DNA from: Mesorhizobium ventifaucium
GTDB lineage: Bacteria; Pseudomonadota; Alphaproteobacteria; Rhizobiales; Rhizobiaceae
Length of the DNA: 64,000 nucleotides
Assembly: GCF_935822925.1 (NCBI RefSeq)
Contig: NZ_CAKXZS010000023.1
Span: 62,001 to 126,000 of the forward strand
Direction of reading: 5' to 3'
Shown here: positions 55,664 through 64,000 of the stretch, piece by piece
Layout: every line of letters starts with the position of its first letter
Position numbering within the stretch: position 1 is the first letter of the stretch
Translations under genes and position numbers: made by a program
Notes under the pieces: generated by a model
What the model saw: only the letters and a program-made list of their open reading frames with translations
Database searches by the model: none
Told to the model about the DNA's origin: nothing

Positions 55664-55762
55664 ATCTTTCTGCTCCGGCTGTGCGACAACAAACTTGTCG
55701 GCAAATCGACAGGTGGGTTCTGTCGGGGTAAACAGATGGCCCGTCAGACTAAACAGGACGCC

Positions 55763-56950
55763 ATGTTGACGATCCGCAAACGCGACGCAAGCGGCACGAC
55801 CGCCAAGGAGGCCGACCACCAGCCGCGCGTTGTGGTCGGCGAGGACGGCGGCGTTCTCGGCTGCGCTTTTTCCGGGACCTGGACGACACGCACCGTGGCG
55901 CTCGTCGATGCCGAGATGCGCAAGATCGAGCAACGCAGCGGTTTTCAGACGCTGGCGCTCGACCTCTCGCATATCGAGAAGATGGATACCGCCGGGGCCT
56001 GGGTGATCGACCGTCTGGTCAGCGCCTTCGAAAAGCAGGGTGTGAAAATCACGATGCAGGGGCAAAGCGAGGTTGCCTCGATCCTGCTCGGCGCCGTCGG
56101 TGACGCCGTTCGACGCGAACCTGATTCGGGCATCGTTGGGCCGCCGAATATCATCATTCGAGGGCTCGAGGCGGTTGGCCGGCGCGTCTATGAGATGCGT
56201 GACGATTTCCTGGCCGCGATGAACATACTGGGCGCCACGATACGCGGCGCGCAGATGAAGCTTGGCCGCGGCCATGCGGTCAATCCGGCGGCGATCTTCA
56301 ACCAGATGGACCGCATGGGCGTCGGCGCCATCCCGGTGGTCGTGCTGATGTCGGCCATCGTCGGGGCGATCGTCGCTCAGCAAGGCGCCTATCAGCTCAG
56401 CTATTTCGGTGCCGATATCTTCGTCGTCGACCTAGTCGGCGTGCTGATCCTGCGCGAGCTCGGCGTGCTGATGACTGCGATCATGATCGCCGGCCGTTCG
56501 GGCAGCGCCATCACGGCTGAAATCGGCTCGATGAAAATGCGCGAGGAGGTCGACGCGCTGAAGGTCATCGGGCTTAATCCGATCGGCGTTCTGGTGTTTC
56601 CGCGGCTGGTCGCGCTGGTGATCGCACTGCCTTGCCTGACGATCATCGCCAATTTCGCCGCACTTGGCGGCGGCATCGCGGCGGCATGGCTCTATTCCGA
56701 CATCGCACCGGCCGCCTTCATCGACCGGCTGCGCGTTGCCATCGATCTCAGCACCATCTTTGCCGGGCTGATCAAGGCGCCGTTCATGGCCATGATCATC
56801 GGCACGATCGCCTCCGTCGAAGGCATGAAGGTCGGCGGCAGCGCCGAATCGCTCGGGCAGCACGTGACTGCTTCGGTGGTGAAGTCGATCTTCGTGGTGA
56901 TCATTCTCGACGGGCTTTTCGCCATGTTCTACGCAGCGATCGAGTTCTGA
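55763..56950 (+). CDS. mlaE: STAS-MlaE fusion, lipid ABC-transporter permease
   Basis: The protein is about 395 residues. An N-terminal STAS/MlaB-like domain (about 25-120, with DLSHIEKMDTAGAWVIDRL) is fused to an MlaE permease (AIVGAIVAQQGAYQL, RELGVLMTAIMIAGRSG, EEVDALKVIGLNPI). In E. coli these are separate MlaB and MlaE proteins of the retrograde phospholipid system. I chose the ATG at 55763 after AGGA; an ATG at 55736 is also in frame. mlaF starts 1 bp after the stop. Confidence 0.93.
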   Translation: MLTIRKRDASGTTAKEADHQPRVVVGEDGGVLGCAFSGTWTTRTVALVDAEMRKIEQRSGFQTLALDLSHIEKMDTAGAWVIDRLVSAFEKQGVKITMQGQSEVASILLGAVGDAVRREPDSGIVGPPNIIIRGLEAVGRRVYEMRDDFLAAMNILGATIRGAQMKLGRGHAVNPAAIFNQMDRMGVGAIPVVVLMSAIVGAIVAQQGAYQLSYFGADIFVVDLVGVLILRELGVLMTAIMIAGRSGSAITAEIGSMKMREEVDALKVIGLNPIGVLVFPRLVALVIALPCLTIIANFAALGGGIAAAWLYSDIAPAAFIDRLRVAIDLSTIFAGLIKAPFMAMIIGTIASVEGMKVGGSAESLGQHVTASVVKSIFVVIILDGLFAMFYAAIEF

Positions 56951-56951
56951 C

Positions 56952-57770
56952 ATGGCGCTGCTTGGCACAAAGCCGACCAGGACTACGCAAACGGCCGACG
57001 AGGACGAGATCGTGCTTTCCGCGCACGACATCACCGTCTCCTTCGCCGACAAGGTCATTCTCGACAAATTGTCGCTCCATATCCGGCGTGGCGAAATTCT
57101 CGGCTTCGTCGGCGCCTCGGGCGCCGGCAAGTCGGTTCTCCTGCGCACTATCCTCGGCCTGGTGCACAAGCAGTCGGGAACGATCAAGCTGTTCGGCGTC
57201 GATGTCGAAAAGGCGAGCGAGAGGGAGCGTCTTCGCATCGACATGCGCCTTGGCGTCCTGTTTCAGCACGGCGCGCTGTTTTCGGCGCTCACGGTGCTCG
57301 AAAACGTGCAGGTGCCGATGCGCGAATATCTCGACTTGCCGAAAAAGCTGATGGACGAACTGGCGATGCTCAAGGTCGAACTGGTCGGGTTGCCGCCGGA
57401 TGCGGCGCAGAAATTCCCGTCCGAGCTTTCCGGCGGCATGATCAAGCGTGCGGCGCTGGCGCGCGCACTGGCGCTCGACCCCGACATCGTGTTCCTCGAC
57501 GAGCCGACATCCGGCCTCGATCCGATCAGCGCGGCTGAGTTCGACGAACTGGTCGTCAAGCTGCGCGATACCATGGATCTGACCGTGTACATGGTCACGC
57601 ATGACCTCGACACGCTGTTCACCGCGTGTGATCGGGTGGCCGTGCTCGGCAACAAGAAGGTGCTGGTCGAAGGCACGATCGACGACATGCTCAAAAGCGA
57701 GGAACCCTGGGTGAAATCCTATTTTCGCGGAAAACGTGCGCGGCAACTTGATCTTGCAGCCCGCGCATAG
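56952..57770 (+). CDS. mlaF: MlaF lipid ABC-transporter ATPase
   Basis: The 272-residue ATPase has Walker A GASGAGKSVLLR, Q-loop LFQHGALFS, signature LSGGMIKRAALARA, Walker B DIVFLDEPTSGLD and H-loop MVTHDLDT. LSGGM in place of LSGGQ is typical of the MlaF/Mkl group. It powers MlaE. It follows mlaE with a 1-bp gap and precedes mlaD by 14 bp, so these are one operon. Confidence 0.95.
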   Translation: MALLGTKPTRTTQTADEDEIVLSAHDITVSFADKVILDKLSLHIRRGEILGFVGASGAGKSVLLRTILGLVHKQSGTIKLFGVDVEKASERERLRIDMRLGVLFQHGALFSALTVLENVQVPMREYLDLPKKLMDELAMLKVELVGLPPDAAQKFPSELSGGMIKRAALARALALDPDIVFLDEPTSGLDPISAAEFDELVVKLRDTMDLTVYMVTHDLDTLFTACDRVAVLGNKKVLVEGTIDDMLKSEEPWVKSYFRGKRARQLDLAARA

Positions 57771-57784
57771 CCATAAGTGGGTAA

Positions 57785-59158
57785 ATGGAAACCAGAGCCA
57801 ACTACGTCATTGTCGGCATTTTCACGCTAGCCGCGATCCTGGCAGCATTCGCGTTCGTCTATTGGACGGCCGCGATTGGCGACAGGGGTGAGACGGCGAT
57901 GCTGAAGGTGCGCATTCCGGGATCGGCTTCCGGCCTCGGCCGCGGCAGTTTCGTGCTGTTCAACGGGGTCAGGGTCGGGGATGTCAGGCGCGTCTATATC
58001 GACCCCGCCAATCCGAACAACGCAATAGCCGAAGCCGAAATAGGCAGGAACACCCCGATCACCAAATCGACGCAGGCCGATATCGGCCTTGCTACCCTCA
58101 CCGGTCAGGCCAATATCGAACTCAGGGGCGCCGACCTCAAGGAGGTCAACCTTCTCGACCAGGCGGAGGCGGAGGGCGGCGTCGCCGAGATCGTCGCCAA
58201 CCCGTCGGCGGTCACCAACCTGTTGCAGACGGCGCAGAACATCTTCACCCGCGCCGATACGGTTCTCACCCAGCTCGAAGGCTTCACCAGGGACGTTCGC
58301 GGGCCGCTGACGCAGACCGTCAACAATGTGCAGACCTTCTCCGACGCGCTGGCCAAGAATTCCGACGGCATCGACAAATTCCTCGCCAGCGTCAGTTCGC
58401 TGTCGGAGGAGTTGAGGGGCGTCTCCGGCAAGCTCGACGGCACGCTGAAGGCGGCGGAAGGGCTGCTCAACGCCGTCGACAAGGATCAGATCAAGAGCAT
58501 CGTCGCCAATGTCGATACCGTGACCACGAACCTGAAGGAAACCAGCAAGCAGTTCGACACGGTCGTCAGGAATGTCGACACCGCGGTGGGGTCGATCAAC
58601 GATTTCGCCCAAAGGACGCAAGGCACGCTGGCCAAGGTCGACGGCGTTCTCGACGGCATCGATCCGGCACAGGTTCGCACCGCGCTGGCCAACATCCAGA
58701 GGGCCAGCGAAAACGCCAACGAGGCTGCCGCCGACATCGCCAAGGTGACCAGCAAATTCGCCAACCGGGCCGACGATATCGACCAGACGATCAAGGACGC
58801 GCAGCAACTCGCGGCGCACCTCAACGACGCTTCGGTGCGCGTCGACGGCATCCTCGCCAAGGTCGATACATTGCTCGGCTCAGGCCAGGCCGACGGCATG
58901 ATAGCCGATGCCAGGAACACTCTGAAATCGTTCAAGCAGGTTGCCGACACGCTGAACGCCCGCCTCGGCACCATCACCGACAATCTGGCGCGATTCTCCG
59001 GCCAGGGCCTGCAGGACGTCGAGGCGCTAGTCCAGGACAGCCGCCGTTCGATCAACCGCATCGAAGAGGCGGTGACGGATCTCAGCCGCAATCCGCAGCG
59101 AATCCTGTCAGGCGGCGAAGGCGAGGTTCGGCAATTCGATGGCAGGGCGCGGCGTTGA
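57785..59158 (+). CDS. mlaD: MlaD-type MCE-domain protein
   Basis: The 457-residue protein has an N-terminal membrane anchor (about 7-29), an MCE domain (about 40-120: FVLFNGVRVGDVRRVYID, GLATLTGQANIEL) and a long C-terminal helical/coiled-coil part rich in Ala, Asp and Val. MCE rings form the periplasmic lipid channel of Mla/Mce systems. It is longer than E. coli MlaD (about 180 residues) but normal for the alphaproteobacterial type. Confidence 0.93.
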   Translation: METRANYVIVGIFTLAAILAAFAFVYWTAAIGDRGETAMLKVRIPGSASGLGRGSFVLFNGVRVGDVRRVYIDPANPNNAIAEAEIGRNTPITKSTQADIGLATLTGQANIELRGADLKEVNLLDQAEAEGGVAEIVANPSAVTNLLQTAQNIFTRADTVLTQLEGFTRDVRGPLTQTVNNVQTFSDALAKNSDGIDKFLASVSSLSEELRGVSGKLDGTLKAAEGLLNAVDKDQIKSIVANVDTVTTNLKETSKQFDTVVRNVDTAVGSINDFAQRTQGTLAKVDGVLDGIDPAQVRTALANIQRASENANEAAADIAKVTSKFANRADDIDQTIKDAQQLAAHLNDASVRVDGILAKVDTLLGSGQADGMIADARNTLKSFKQVADTLNARLGTITDNLARFSGQGLQDVEALVQDSRRSINRIEEAVTDLSRNPQRILSGGEGEVRQFDGRARR

Positions 59159-59246
59159 CTTCGGCTTTCGCCGGCCCCAAGAACGGCAGGCAAGTACGCT
59201 GCGGATGCGATTTGCTCATTCGATTCGGGGACAACGGGGATCGCGT

Positions 59247-59873
59247 GTGAAGTCGGTCGTGCTTAAATTGGGCGGGGTCAAATCGGGCGGGCTCAAAGCG
59301 GGTGTGGCATTGCTTGCGCTTTCACTAGCCGGCTGCGCGTTTTTGCCGGGCGGCGGGCCGGCGCCGCTAGACACATTCGAACTGTCGGCGCCGTCGCTCG
59401 ATGCGCGCGGCCGCGGCCGCCAGCAAATCCTCATCGCCCAGCCTTCCGCGCTCAAGGCGCTGGACAGCCAGAACATCGTCATCAAGCCGTCGGTGCGCTC
59501 GATCCAGTACCTCAAGGGAGCGCAATGGGCCGACCGGCTGCCGCTGATCGTGCAGGCGCGGTTGGCCGAGACGTTCCAGCGCTCGGGCAGTTTCGCCGGC
59601 GTCGGCAAGCCGGGCGAGGGCCTGGCGATCGACTATCAGGTGATCGTCGAGGTGCGTTCCTTCGAAGTCCGCGTCGACGGCGGCGAACATGCCGAGGTCG
59701 AGCTGTTCGTGCGGATATTGAACGACCGCAATGGCGAGGTGCGCGCCTCCAAGAGCTTCAACGCGACCGCGCCCGTCTCGGGCGGCGGCAACCAGGCCTA
59801 TGTCGACGCGCTCGACAGGGCGTTCGGCGTTGCCGCCAAGGACATCGTCCGCTGGACCGATTCGGTGATCTGA
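59247..59873 (+). CDS. ABC-type transport auxiliary lipoprotein (Mla-associated)
   Basis: The protein is about 208 residues. The signal peptide ends in the lipobox LSLAGC, so the Cys is lipidated. The rest matches the ABC-transport auxiliary lipoprotein domain found with MCE systems (PqiC-like; IVIKPSVRSIQYL, QAYVDALDRAFG). I prefer the GTG at 59247, after GGGGA; an ATG at 59205 is also in frame. As last gene of the operon it probably links the MlaD ring to the outer membrane. Confidence 0.85.
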   Translation: MKSVVLKLGGVKSGGLKAGVALLALSLAGCAFLPGGGPAPLDTFELSAPSLDARGRGRQQILIAQPSALKALDSQNIVIKPSVRSIQYLKGAQWADRLPLIVQARLAETFQRSGSFAGVGKPGEGLAIDYQVIVEVRSFEVRVDGGEHAEVELFVRILNDRNGEVRASKSFNATAPVSGGGNQAYVDALDRAFGVAAKDIVRWTDSVI

Positions 59874-60101: not shown

Positions 60102-63100
60102 TCAATGCAGGCGGCCACTGGCGTGGGCAAGCATCGTATAGACCTTGCCGGTGTCCGACGTCAGGTAGGTCTGCGCCATCATGTTGTCGCGGTCGTTGCG
60201 CGACACGTCCTTGAGCAGCTTTTCGAAGTCGTCGCAGTAACGGTCGACGGCGGCGCGGAATTCCGCCTCCATTTGATATTTGCGGCGGATCTCGTCGAAC
60301 GTCTGCTGGCCCTTCAGCGTGTAGAGACGCCGGGTGAACACGTCACGCTCGCCGCTCCGGTAGCGGTTCCACAGCTCGATCGAGGCGTCGTGATCGATGG
60401 CGCGGGCGATGTCGACGGAAAGCGAGTTGAGCGACTCCACGACATGAAGCGGCGAGCGCTGGGCAGGGGCCGCCGAGCGTGGCGCTTCCGAAGGTGCCGC
60501 GGGCTTGGCGGCCTCCTCGCGCGACGCCCCGGTCAAGAGATCGCGCACCCAGCCGCCCTGCGGCGTGCGGCCGTTAGGGTCGCGCTGGCGCGGCGCCGTC
60601 TCCGACGGACGTTCCAGGTCGCCGCGCAGTGCGGTGTCACCCGACGGCGCCTGCGGGGCAAGGGGTTCCGGTGCCGGAGGACGGCGCAGCGGCTCAGTGG
60701 CGCGCGGGGCAGGCGTCTGCTGTGCCGGACGCAGGTTGCGCGGCTCGGAGGAGTCGGTGCTGCGGCCAGATTTCGCAACGATTTCCGAGAGTTCCTTCAG
60801 CGCGTTGATCTGCTCGGAAACGGCACGACGGATGGCCGTTGTCGATTCCTTTGCCTCTTCCGGCATCTCGATGACGCCCTTCTTGAGCTCAGCGCGGGTA
60901 AGGTCGAGCTCGCTCTTGATCGAGCTGGCGGTGCGTCGCATCTCCTCGGTCGCGTCGGCAAAGCGCTTGGTTGCCGAATCGACGACGTCGGCAATGGAGG
61001 TACGGATCTTGTCCGCCGACTCCAGCGTCTTGCCTTCGGCGTTCTGCAACGTCTGGCCGACCAGATCCTCGAACGAGCGCATGACTTTTTCGAGATCCTC
61101 CGACTTCTTGACCAGGCCGACGGCGAGGTCCTCCAGCGACGACTGCCTTTCCAGCGTGTGTTCGAGGTTGCTCTGGGCCGAGCTCAACAGGTCCGAAGCA
61201 CTGGACAGCAACCGGCTGTGCTCATCGAACTTGGTGGCGATCGAGGCAACCTCGCGCAAGGTCGAGGATGACAGCTCGGTAAGCCGTGTCGTGTTCGAAT
61301 CGACCAGACGCGCCGAACTGGCGAAGGTCTGCGCGGCTTTTTCCGTTGTCGCCGCAAAGCTTTGCGTGCTGCCGGTCAGGCGTTCGTCGACCTGGCCGAG
61401 ATTGGCCGCCGCCTGTTCGATCAGCTGGCCGAGCTGTGCGCTCGAGGTGCTCATGCGGCCGATGAGGTCGGCGACGCTGTCGGCGAGCGTCGAGCGCGCC
61501 CCTTCGACAGCCGACAATGTTTCGGCCGTGCGGCTGGCGAGCGCGTCGACCAAGGCGGCGTTTTCGCTGCGCAGCTTCTCGGTGGCGCGTTCGGTCACCT
61601 CTTCCATGCTCTTTTGCAGTTGCGAGCCGCCCAGGGCGAAGCGCTCGACCAGAGGCCGTGCCGTTTCGTCGAGGATTTTCGAGATCTCGGCCGAACGTGC
61701 CGCAAGCATGGTGTTGAGCTCGCGGGTGTTGGTGCCGATGGTCTTCGCCGCGTCGTTGGTGCTCTGGCCGATATGCTGGCCGACCGCAGTGAAGGTTTCG
61801 GCGATCGAGTTGGCGCGCGAAATGAGTTGCGCCTCGGCAGTCGAAACCTGCTCGTTGAGCTTCTGGCCTATCGTTTCGGTGGTGTAGACCAGACGGTTTT
61901 CGACGCCGGCAACCTGTTCCTCGACGCGAGCCGCCGCAGCCGCCGCGCTGGAGGCCAGGCGCTCGTCGGCGCCGGCGAGCGCCTGCTCGATCTCACGGGC
62001 GTGGACGGCCAATTCCTGACCGGTCTGCCTTGCACGTTCGGCAACCCGCTGCTCGGTGCTGGCAAACGCCCCGACGATGTTGTCGGCATGTTCTCCGATC
62101 GTCGACGTGCTGTCGGCAATGCGGGACACCAGGCGGTGATCCGCCTCCTCGAAAATACGGCCGATCTCGGACGCGCGGGCCGAGAGCGCTTCCGAACCTT
62201 CGGCGATGCGCGAGATCAGCTGTTGGTCGGCGGCATCGAAAATGCGGCCAAGGTCCGATGCCCGCGCTGCGAGCGCTTCGGCCGATTCGCCGATGCGCAC
62301 GCTGAGCCGTTCGTCGGCGCCTTCGAAATTGCGCAGGATGTCGCCGGCGCGTGCCGCCAGCGACTGCGCCGTTTCGACCGCGCGGGCAACCAGCTTCTGG
62401 TCCGCCGCATCGAATGTACCGGCGATCTCGCTGGCACGGGCAGCCAGTTGGTTGGCCGTTTCCTGGGCGCGCGCCAGCAACGAGTTCGAGGTGTCGTCGA
62501 CGCGGGCCATGATTGCGCTCGATGTATCCTCGGCCCGGGCAACGAGCGCGCTCGACGTGTCTTCGGCACGTGCAGCGAGGCGGCGATCCGCTTCCTCGAA
62601 GGTGCGTGCGATATCCTCCGCCCTGGCGAGCAGGGCAGTAGAGGTCTGCTCGGCGCGTTCGGCGATCTGGCGATCGGCGTCGCTGAACACAGCACCCGCC
62701 TGCTCATGCAGCGCACTGGTGACTTCCATGACCTTTTCGCGCAACGCTCCGGCAACGAAGACTGCGCTCTTTTCGAGCACGTTGCGGACGTTGTCGACAC
62801 CGGTCGACAGCGCGCGCTCCATGGTCCCGGCGCGCTCCTCGATGATACCGGTCTGGCGGCTGAACGCCTGCTCGATCTTTTCGACGTCGGCGGCAATGGC
62901 GTCCGAGATGTCGGTGCTTCTGGCGGCGATCTGGTCGATATGGCCGGACAGGGACCGGTCGACTTCCTTGCGCGTATCGGCGAGCCTGGAGAGATCGTCC
63001 TCCAGCGCACGGGTCAGCGCGTCGCGGCCTTCGGCCAGCTTGCCGACGTGCCCGGCGATGATGTCGTCTATGTCGCTGCGGCTCGCCGCAATTTTCTGCA

Positions 63101-64000
63101 GGTCTGCTTCCAGCGCACGTCTGAGGATGTCGCGGCCCTCGGCCAGCTTCTCGACCTGGCCGGCAACCAGCCCGTCGATGCTCGACCGGCTTTCCGCCAG
63201 CTTGGCGAGATCGTCTTCAAGCGCCTTGGACAGAATCGAGCGGTCTTGGATAAGCTTCTCGGCGTGGCTGTTTACAAGACCGTTGACGCTGCCGAGATCG
63301 GCCTCCAGCGCCCGCGCAAACTCTGCGCGATTGTCGGTCAGCTGCTGAGACTGGTCGGCGACGACACCCTTGATGGTATTGAGGTCTGCTTCCAGCGCGC
63401 GTCTGAGGATGTCGCGGCCTTCGGCCAGCTTCTCGACCTGGCCGGCAACCAGCCCGTCGATGCTCGACCGGCTTTCCGCCAGCTTGGCGAGATCGTCTTC
63501 AAGCGCCTTGGACAGGATCGAGCGGTCCTGGATGAGCTTCTCGGCGTGGCTGTTTACAAGACCATTGACGCTGCCGAGATCGGCCTCCAGCGCCCGCGCA
63601 AACTCTGCGCGATTGTCGGTCAGCTGCTGAGACTGGTCGGCGACCGCACCCTTGATGGTATTGAGGTCTGCTTCCAGCGCGCGTCTGAGCAGGTCGCGGC
63701 CTTCGGCCAGCTTCTCGACCTGGCCGGCAACCAGCCCGTCGATGCTCGACCGGCTTTCCGCCAATTTGGCGAGATCGTCTTCGAGCGCCTTCGACAGCGT
63801 CGAGCGGTCTGCGGCGAGCCTGTTCATGTGATCGGAGATCAGGCCGTTCACATTCTGCAGGTCGGTCTCCAACGCTTGCGACAGTTGACCACGATCTTCC
63901 GCCAGCTTTTCGGACTGGCCTGATATGACGTCCTTGATCGTGTTGAGATCGGATTCGAGCGCACGCTTGAGAATGTCGCGGCCCTCGGCCAGCTTCTCGA
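60102..64000 (-). CDS. GPR/RgsE-like giant coiled-coil growth-pole protein (5' end outside window)
   Basis: About 1298 C-terminal residues of a larger protein are visible; the frame remains open past 64000. From the N side it has 29-residue helical repeats (RALEADLNTIKG type) in 94-residue blocks, then 11-residue amphipathic repeats (ALVARAEDTSS type) like apolipoproteins, a long coiled coil, a Pro-rich linker, and a conserved C-terminal domain of about 110 residues (VESLNSLSVDIARAIDHDAS). This composition matches the growth pole ring protein of Agrobacterium/Sinorhizobium, needed for unipolar growth. Identity is inferred from composition and memory of the family, not alignment. Confidence 0.75.
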   Translation of the reverse strand, partial: EKLAEGRDILKRALESDLNTIKDVISGQSEKLAEDRGQLSQALETDLQNVNGLISDHMNRLAADRSTLSKALEDDLAKLAESRSSIDGLVAGQVEKLAEGRDLLRRALEADLNTIKGAVADQSQQLTDNRAEFARALEADLGSVNGLVNSHAEKLIQDRSILSKALEDDLAKLAESRSSIDGLVAGQVEKLAEGRDILRRALEADLNTIKGVVADQSQQLTDNRAEFARALEADLGSVNGLVNSHAEKLIQDRSILSKALEDDLAKLAESRSSIDGLVAGQVEKLAEGRDILRRALEADLQKIAASRSDIDDIIAGHVGKLAEGRDALTRALEDDLSRLADTRKEVDRSLSGHIDQIAARSTDISDAIAADVEKIEQAFSRQTGIIEERAGTMERALSTGVDNVRNVLEKSAVFVAGALREKVMEVTSALHEQAGAVFSDADRQIAERAEQTSTALLARAEDIARTFEEADRRLAARAEDTSSALVARAEDTSSAIMARVDDTSNSLLARAQETANQLAARASEIAGTFDAADQKLVARAVETAQSLAARAGDILRNFEGADERLSVRIGESAEALAARASDLGRIFDAADQQLISRIAEGSEALSARASEIGRIFEEADHRLVSRIADSTSTIGEHADNIVGAFASTEQRVAERARQTGQELAVHAREIEQALAGADERLASSAAAAAARVEEQVAGVENRLVYTTETIGQKLNEQVSTAEAQLISRANSIAETFTAVGQHIGQSTNDAAKTIGTNTRELNTMLAARSAEISKILDETARPLVERFALGGSQLQKSMEEVTERATEKLRSENAALVDALASRTAETLSAVEGARSTLADSVADLIGRMSTSSAQLGQLIEQAAANLGQVDERLTGSTQSFAATTEKAAQTFASSARLVDSNTTRLTELSSSTLREVASIATKFDEHSRLLSSASDLLSSAQSNLEHTLERQSSLEDLAVGLVKKSEDLEKVMRSFEDLVGQTLQNAEGKTLESADKIRTSIADVVDSATKRFADATEEMRRTASSIKSELDLTRAELKKGVIEMPEEAKESTTAIRRAVSEQINALKELSEIVAKSGRSTDSSEPRNLRPAQQTPAPRATEPLRRPPAPEPLAPQAPSGDTALRGDLERPSETAPRQRDPNGRTPQGGWVRDLLTGASREEAAKPAAPSEAPRSAAPAQRSPLHVVESLNSLSVDIARAIDHDASIELWNRYRSGERDVFTRRLYTLKGQQTFDEIRRKYQMEAEFRAAVDRYCDDFEKLLKDVSRNDRDNMMAQTYLTSDTGKVYTMLAHASGRLH
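63118..64000. repeat. 282-bp tandem repeats inside the GPR-like gene
   Basis: The same phrase (CGTCTGAG or close variants) occurs at 63118, 63400, 63682 and 63964, each 282 bp apart. The copies starting at 63118, 63400 and 63682 are nearly identical along their length, and the fourth is cut by the window end. 282 bp is 94 codons, made of two 29-residue units and one of 36 (29 plus one heptad). The near-identity at DNA level suggests recent duplication. Confidence 0.9.

Follow-up and report, generated by a model that had tools for sequence, protein, structure and literature searches.

The window analysed here, a stretch of 64,000 nucleotides from Mesorhizobium ventifaucium, ends inside a long gene on its minus strand. 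When the contig sequence is extended past the window edge, a coiled-coil array within this gene continues to 65537 and the gene itself to 67247 (window coordinates), and the whole gene product is 2381 aa long, counted from a start at MAKK. The features of the gene, all on the minus strand, are as follows.

60102..64000, minus strand: 3' part of the putative GPR/RgsE ortholog (named by orthology), an open frame; the full gene was seen on a longer stretch of the contig
60102-60104, minus strand: stop codon of the gene
60105..60500, minus strand: conserved C-terminal domain of about 110 residues (20-sequence alignment, mean column identity 83%)
60477..60773 (borders approximate), minus strand: linker rich in proline and in G+C, ahead of the C-terminal domain (from sequence, GC 0.72-0.80)
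60906..62894 (left border approximate), minus strand: C-side coil, which follows the array (TRF, Pfam)
62149-62333 and 62515-62579, minus strand: 29-residue and 11-residue sub-repeats, respectively, in the C-side coil (TRF)
62895..64000, minus strand: in-window part of the 27-unit coiled-coil array, with units 16-26 complete and unit 15 truncated at the window edge
63111..63392, minus strand: 94-codon block, copy b (units 22-24)
63393..63674, minus strand: 94-codon block, copy a (units 19-21, 29+29+36 residues)
63675..63956, minus strand: older 94-codon block (units 16-18), differing from copies a and b at 71 and 70 of 282 nt, respectively
equivalent of 67245-67247, minus strand: start codon (MAKK...), in the 5' part of the gene beyond the window

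The C-terminal 132 residues of the protein are 82.3% identical over 113 residues (query residues 19-131) to the product of a gene in Sinorhizobium meliloti Ak57 that is annotated as "kinesin" and is 2089 codons long. The published length of S. meliloti RgsE is likewise 2089 aa, and RgsE is termed a homolog of GPR in the accessible text of PMC7327166. Because of the C-terminal match and this equality of length, we read the 2381-aa protein, from its sequence, as the counterpart (ortholog) in Mesorhizobium of S. meliloti RgsE and a homolog of Agrobacterium GPR, which bears out the earlier note's description of it as growth-pole-ring-like. RgsE and A. tumefaciens GPR (Atu1348, 2115 aa) are placed in the same family as the M. 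ventifaucium protein, and resemble it in a long proline-free coil, in folP and DUF922-type neighbours and, as far as the M. ventifaucium translation shows when inspected by eye, in two apolar stretches near the N-terminus. A full-length BLASTP comparison with the S. meliloti protein gave 26% identity and an E value of 4.7e-156, a value inflated by coiled-coil bias, as composition correction and filter were off. The C-terminal domain was present in 145 of 146 genomes of the genus (the one without a match being G080) and in 197 of 199 sampled genomes of the family, and the open frames of the gene across the genus are mostly about 1900-2600 aa long.

In the one named S. meliloti genome compared, the annotated upstream neighbours are folP and a DUF922 protease, and similar folP/DUF922-type ORFs, recognised by eye, lie upstream in M. 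ventifaucium; the downstream side differs between the two. On that side in M. ventifaucium, four plus-strand ORFs at 55736-59873 converge on the gene, and by eye they resemble a permease, an ATPase, an MCE protein and a lipoprotein, presumably of a lipid-transport (Mla/MCE-type) ABC operon, where in S. meliloti an IS110 transposase adjoins the gene. The S. meliloti record, CP090106.1, is labelled plasmid pSymB, is 3.7 Mb long, carries both rgsE and folP, and may be a mislabelled chromosome.

According to the accessible parts of PMC8262873, GPR in A. tumefaciens localises as a ring to the growth pole and is required for polar growth. It is predicted to lie mostly in the cytoplasm, anchored through two membrane segments near its N-terminus, and cell shape is disturbed when its apolipoprotein-like regions or its C-terminus carry deletions; the word "repeat" is absent from that text. 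Its conclusions give the extended 1,700-residue helical domain of GPR as 600 nm, and 1,700 residues at 0.15 nm per residue would come to about 255 nm of straight helix, which is nearer the reported 200-nm ring than 600 nm. The likeness to human apolipoproteins A1, A4 and E (Pfam PF01442), which consist of amphipathic helical repeats, may extend to the M. ventifaucium protein: the whole protein matches the family in four stretches with an E value of 1.7e-21 at 77.3 bits, under the curated cut-off of 90, and the C-side coil does so with an E value of 1.5e-13 at 51.3 bits, again under that cut-off. Any such likeness to apolipoproteins would be one of sequence.

The C-terminal domain was modelled by AlphaFold with a pLDDT of 74 and a pTM of 0.66. 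A fold search with this domain against the PDB returned 95 matches at E<=10 and none at E<=0.001, and in a sequence search of the domain against solved structures the best E value was only 0.34. Several drafts (L166, L168, L188, L236 and L238) end a contig in the G+C-rich proline linker rather than in the array. The C-side coil varies in length between species.

The array itself covers protein residues 571-1454, and its 884 residues include no proline. It splits into 27 units of 29 or 36 residues, mostly ordered in blocks of 29-29-36 residues (94 codons), and read by eye the 29-residue unit is a 36-residue unit minus seven residues. In a unit search that permitted steps of 29 and 36 only, the border-motif score was 3.24, and ten other step sets scored from -1.14 to 0.86. 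A 29+36 block occurs once, and its unit 14 is mixed in type: of its last 29 nt, 28 agree with type B2 and 18 with B1, and of the 58 nt preceding these, 49 agree with B1 and 31 with B2. Unit 14 would therefore be the start of one 29-type joined to the end of the other, a hybrid of its neighbours' types that fits an out-of-register, unequal crossover.

Within the window, TRF reported a period of 282 bp (94 codons) at 63100-63809, with 2.5 copies, 96% matches and a score of 1308, in an open minus-strand frame. The earlier note had described an exact tandem duplication in four nearly identical copies. The duplication is real and in frame, but it is not exact, and the copies are less alike than claimed: those at 63100-63381 and 63382-63663 are 97% alike, the one at 63664-63945 is 76% alike, and 63946-64000 holds no more than the first 55 nt of another copy, 87% alike and cut by the window edge. 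In unit register, copies a and b differ at 8 of 282 nt, in six synonymous codons and one non-synonymous codon (dS 0.107, dN 0.005). The note's view that the copies are more alike as DNA than the protein would need holds in kind, but dS between them is about that of M. ventifaucium to its nearest sampled relatives (0.091-0.107), so the pair is not very recent. Within the rod of this Mesorhizobium GPR/RgsE protein, no block duplication that can be seen is more recent.

We compared the array across Mesorhizobium, between species, with one genome per sampled species. In the two genome collections searched for second strains, the named loci closest to a sampled genome proved to be that genome's own genes. 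Of 146 genomes, 145 had the gene; four of these (G048, G052, G054 and G055) were left out as contig-end fragments, and of the 141 loci analysed, the C-terminus of G057 was unreadable and a further 18 were not measurable (seven for gaps, one for scattered N, and the others for contig ends or frame breaks), giving 122 measured genes. These hold 13-33 units, or 454-1072 residues, in 42 arrangements, and the M. ventifaucium array is the sixth longest among them. Copy number thus varies between species, and the 42 arrangements exclude that every relative has the same copy number and diverged repeats; the earlier note had supposed that the number could vary between strains. The stretch from the membrane-side motif to the start of the array, on the other hand, is 344 residues long in 122 of 122 genes. 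The array tail is 3 residues long in 113 genes, 21 in six and 39 in three, the last two groups making up nine genes with a further piece of 18 or 36 residues, the border motif of which gave no score. Four genes are frame-broken (G017, G029, G077 and G023, three on contigs >7 Mb and one in a draft), where inactivation and sequencing error look alike.

Changes of arrangement are frequent. A tree of the 122 genes built on the aligned flanks requires at least 66 changes, against a mean of 100.6 and a lowest value of 94 with shuffled labels, and arrangements differ in 18 of 37 sister pairs and in 8 of the 13 pairs whose N-flank identity is at least 98%. For instance, G037 (on a 7.3-Mb contig) and G141, which is identical to M. 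temperatum, match at 98.6% beside the array, whose length differs between them by 94 residues. The nearest sampled relative of M. ventifaucium (G000), G040, lacks exactly one 29-29-36 block relative to it; G034 has the block pair and G087 lacks it, and the four species all differ from one another. The block pairs of G034 and G000 have within-genome distances of 8 and 8 and cross distances of 9-15, so that the copies cannot be ordered and may be of shared or of separate origin. Adjacent block pairs at least 97% alike occur in 3 of 122 arrays and pairs at least 90% alike in 13 of 122, and the ten best all come from the M. ventifaucium lineage and its close relatives. In G032, a 477-bp tandem copy differs by a single nucleotide. 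A second Mesorhizobium lineage (G059, G043, G028, G093 and G142) holds the longest arrays, with up to 33 units and 1072 residues, and there G043 and G059 differ from G028 and G093 by one 94-residue block, apparently in an expansion separate from that of M. ventifaucium.

The apolar residues of the M. ventifaucium array recur with a period of 3.615 residues at a power of 730, where the maximum in 200 shuffles was 134, and over the 122 genes the period is 3.610-3.615. Across nine 94-residue blocks the direction of the apolar stripe stays within -9 to +32 degrees. Length differences between arrays, taken from the mode, lie near whole helical turns, so the stripe keeps its direction: their mean deviation from whole turns is 0.049 turn, against a random expectation of 0.25. 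This fit was matched by none of 20,000 random sets, a figure to be read with the period of 3.612 having been derived from the same arrays and the lengths being related by descent. In addition, steps of unit size follow from whole-unit duplication by itself, and whole turns are then no proof of selection. Length differences in the C-side coil, which is tiled unlike the array, deviate from whole turns by a mean of 0.082 turn, likewise unmatched in the 20,000 random sets. There was a weak negative relation between array and C-side coil length (r = -0.24 over 122 genes), the relation sought being a tape-like compensation of one by the other. An AlphaFold model of an array fragment gave two long helices with a break at residues 170-173, and is weak (pLDDT 64, pTM 0.25, four sequences).

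Synonymous codon identity among the 36-residue units of M. ventifaucium reaches 0.83, more than in any other of the 120 Mesorhizobium genes scored (mean 0.68), and codon usage would predict 0.50. The N-side, being of constant length, served as the clock, and pairs of genes were counted as distant when synonymous identity in this flank was under 0.7. Among such distant pairs, synonymous identity within genes exceeds that between genes in 3750 of 3907, and among close pairs it does so in 1 of 44; under the stricter demand that both genes exceed the between-gene value, 2597 of the 3907 distant pairs remain. Because the C-side coil varies in length, ungapped flanks shift, and for this reason the tree rests on aligned flanks and the homogenisation test on the N-side. 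The pattern is that of concerted evolution and indicates, at the level of codons, units partly homogenised within genes. The idea that the most homogenised arrays would be the longest was not borne out, as unit number and homogenisation are uncorrelated (rho 0.10, P 0.28, n=120).

We put at roughly 0.78 the probability that the rod has been lengthened and shortened by unequal recombination between its units, in a putatively membrane-anchored scaffold of the growing pole. Near-identical DNA units would pair out of register and recombine, and whole in-frame units would be gained or lost. Less surely, selection would keep only those changes that preserve a continuous amphipathic rod, which could then span, with an adjustable length, from the predicted membrane anchor to the conserved C-terminal domain. 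Speaking against this reading are the missing correlation between unit number and homogenisation, the smaller share of distant pairs that passes the stricter demand, the rarity of block pairs at least 97% alike (3 of 122 arrays) and the helix break in the weak AlphaFold model.

As to what the length changes mean for the cell, there is an even chance that they mean nothing, i.e., that the rod tolerates any whole number of units and its length drifts neutrally. The wide range of array lengths among 122 species of one genus and the frequent change between sister species would be expected under drift, and no link of length to any trait emerged in this analysis. Nevertheless, the constancy of the 344 residues before the array indicates that any such tolerance is local, and the near-whole-turn steps in the differently tiled C-side coil argue against drift as well. 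An effect of rod length on polar growth or on the reach of the ring, as the earlier note imagined, is plausible, with drift as likely. A helix rises 0.15 nm per residue, so that a 94-residue block corresponds to about 14 nm of straight helix. It is tempting, though we consider it unlikely, to see GPR/RgsE as an evolvable molecular ruler, in which the number of units would set how far the C-terminal domain sits from the anchor within the ring of the growth pole, recombination would retune this distance by about 14 nm per 94-residue block, the whole-turn rule would keep the register, and species, perhaps strains, would differ in pole geometry. Arrays of 454 to 1072 residues within one genus offer a natural length series for a polar-growth scaffold, and with a fixed start, whole-turn steps and sister species one 94-residue block apart, whether rod length sets pole geometry is directly testable.

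Both the GPR/RgsE family and repeat rods of variable length are already known, the latter from the Periscope proteins of the cell surface. As described in the accessible text of PMC8201768, Periscope proteins have long, highly similar DNA repeats that code for a rod of variable repeat number, with intragenic recombination proposed as the cause, and form stalks at the surface, built of folded domains, at whose end an N-terminal ligand-binding domain is held out. The trait of long, similar tandem DNA repeats in variable number is found here too, between species, with near-identical blocks only in some lineages; GPR/RgsE, in contrast, is a coiled coil predicted to face the cytoplasm, its variation as seen here is between species, and we do not class it as a member. 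By analogy with what has been proposed for Periscope proteins, the array might be a contingency locus whose unit number shifts within populations and gives cells of different rod length. That close species differ already (the 8 of 13 pairs above) is in its favour, but the window pair, with its dS of 0.107, is not very recent, and three Sinorhizobium isolates had identical genes, though those genes are without near-identical units and hence uninformative on variation. All in all, we hold a contingency locus to be distinctly unlikely.

Still less probable is an assembly artefact, in which the duplicated block or its copy number would be wrong in the M. ventifaucium draft. This draft consists of 96 contigs, and the earlier note had warned that short-read assemblies often collapse at such a repeat. 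Trouble of this kind does occur elsewhere, as seven of the 141 loci have N-runs inside the array (G014, G088, G090, G097, G098, G133 and G143) and one contig (G066) begins inside it, so that draft genomes can misreport the GPR/RgsE gene. The M. ventifaucium gene shows none of it, being an open frame free of N on a 547-kb contig; 8 sites tell the close copies apart, no exact repeat anywhere in the gene exceeds 97 bp, and G034 carries the same block pair. Variation also persists on large contigs, with 23 arrangements among the 35 measured genes on contigs of at least 5.1 Mb. Some collapse of perfectly identical blocks may nevertheless have affected the M. ventifaucium array. Finally, it is hardly credible that selection on protein and codon choice alone produced the DNA identity with no recombination between units, for although the units share one gene, one codon bias and one helical pattern, their synonymous identity exceeds both the value expected from codon usage and, for most distant pairs, that between genes, differing unit numbers need duplication and loss, and unit 14 is a hybrid.

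Returning to unequal recombination in a GPR/RgsE rod, a literature search that missed most subscription papers, including the original GPR report, found nothing on variation of unit number in this family. The long coiled coils Scy and FilP of Streptomyces offer another comparison, drawn from their description. In the accessible text of PMC9858780 they are hendecad coiled coils of great length and are implicated in organising the pole or in cell division, and length differs greatly within the FilP/Scy group; they differ from the Mesorhizobium protein in being actinobacterial, in having a DivIVA-like N-terminal motif, and in their hendecads, where Mesorhizobium has units of 29 and 36 residues and a period of 3.61. 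Closer to home, the S. meliloti coil has repeats mainly of 22, 106, 29, 44 and 11 residues with an apolar period of 3.655, whereas the M. ventifaucium coil has repeats of 94, 29, 65 and 36 residues, a period of 3.61 and near-identical DNA blocks. Among 20 outgroup loci from the family, 14 were readable by pattern and 6 were not, and in 12 of the 14 readable ones the strongest self-match fell at a lag of 29, 36 or 144 (4 x 36), in the other two at 11 and 44. In other genera of the family (L101, L102, L105 and L115), the coils vary widely in length (the open frames measure 2551-3006 aa) and their units have 18, 29 or 36 residues, or 44 in one case.
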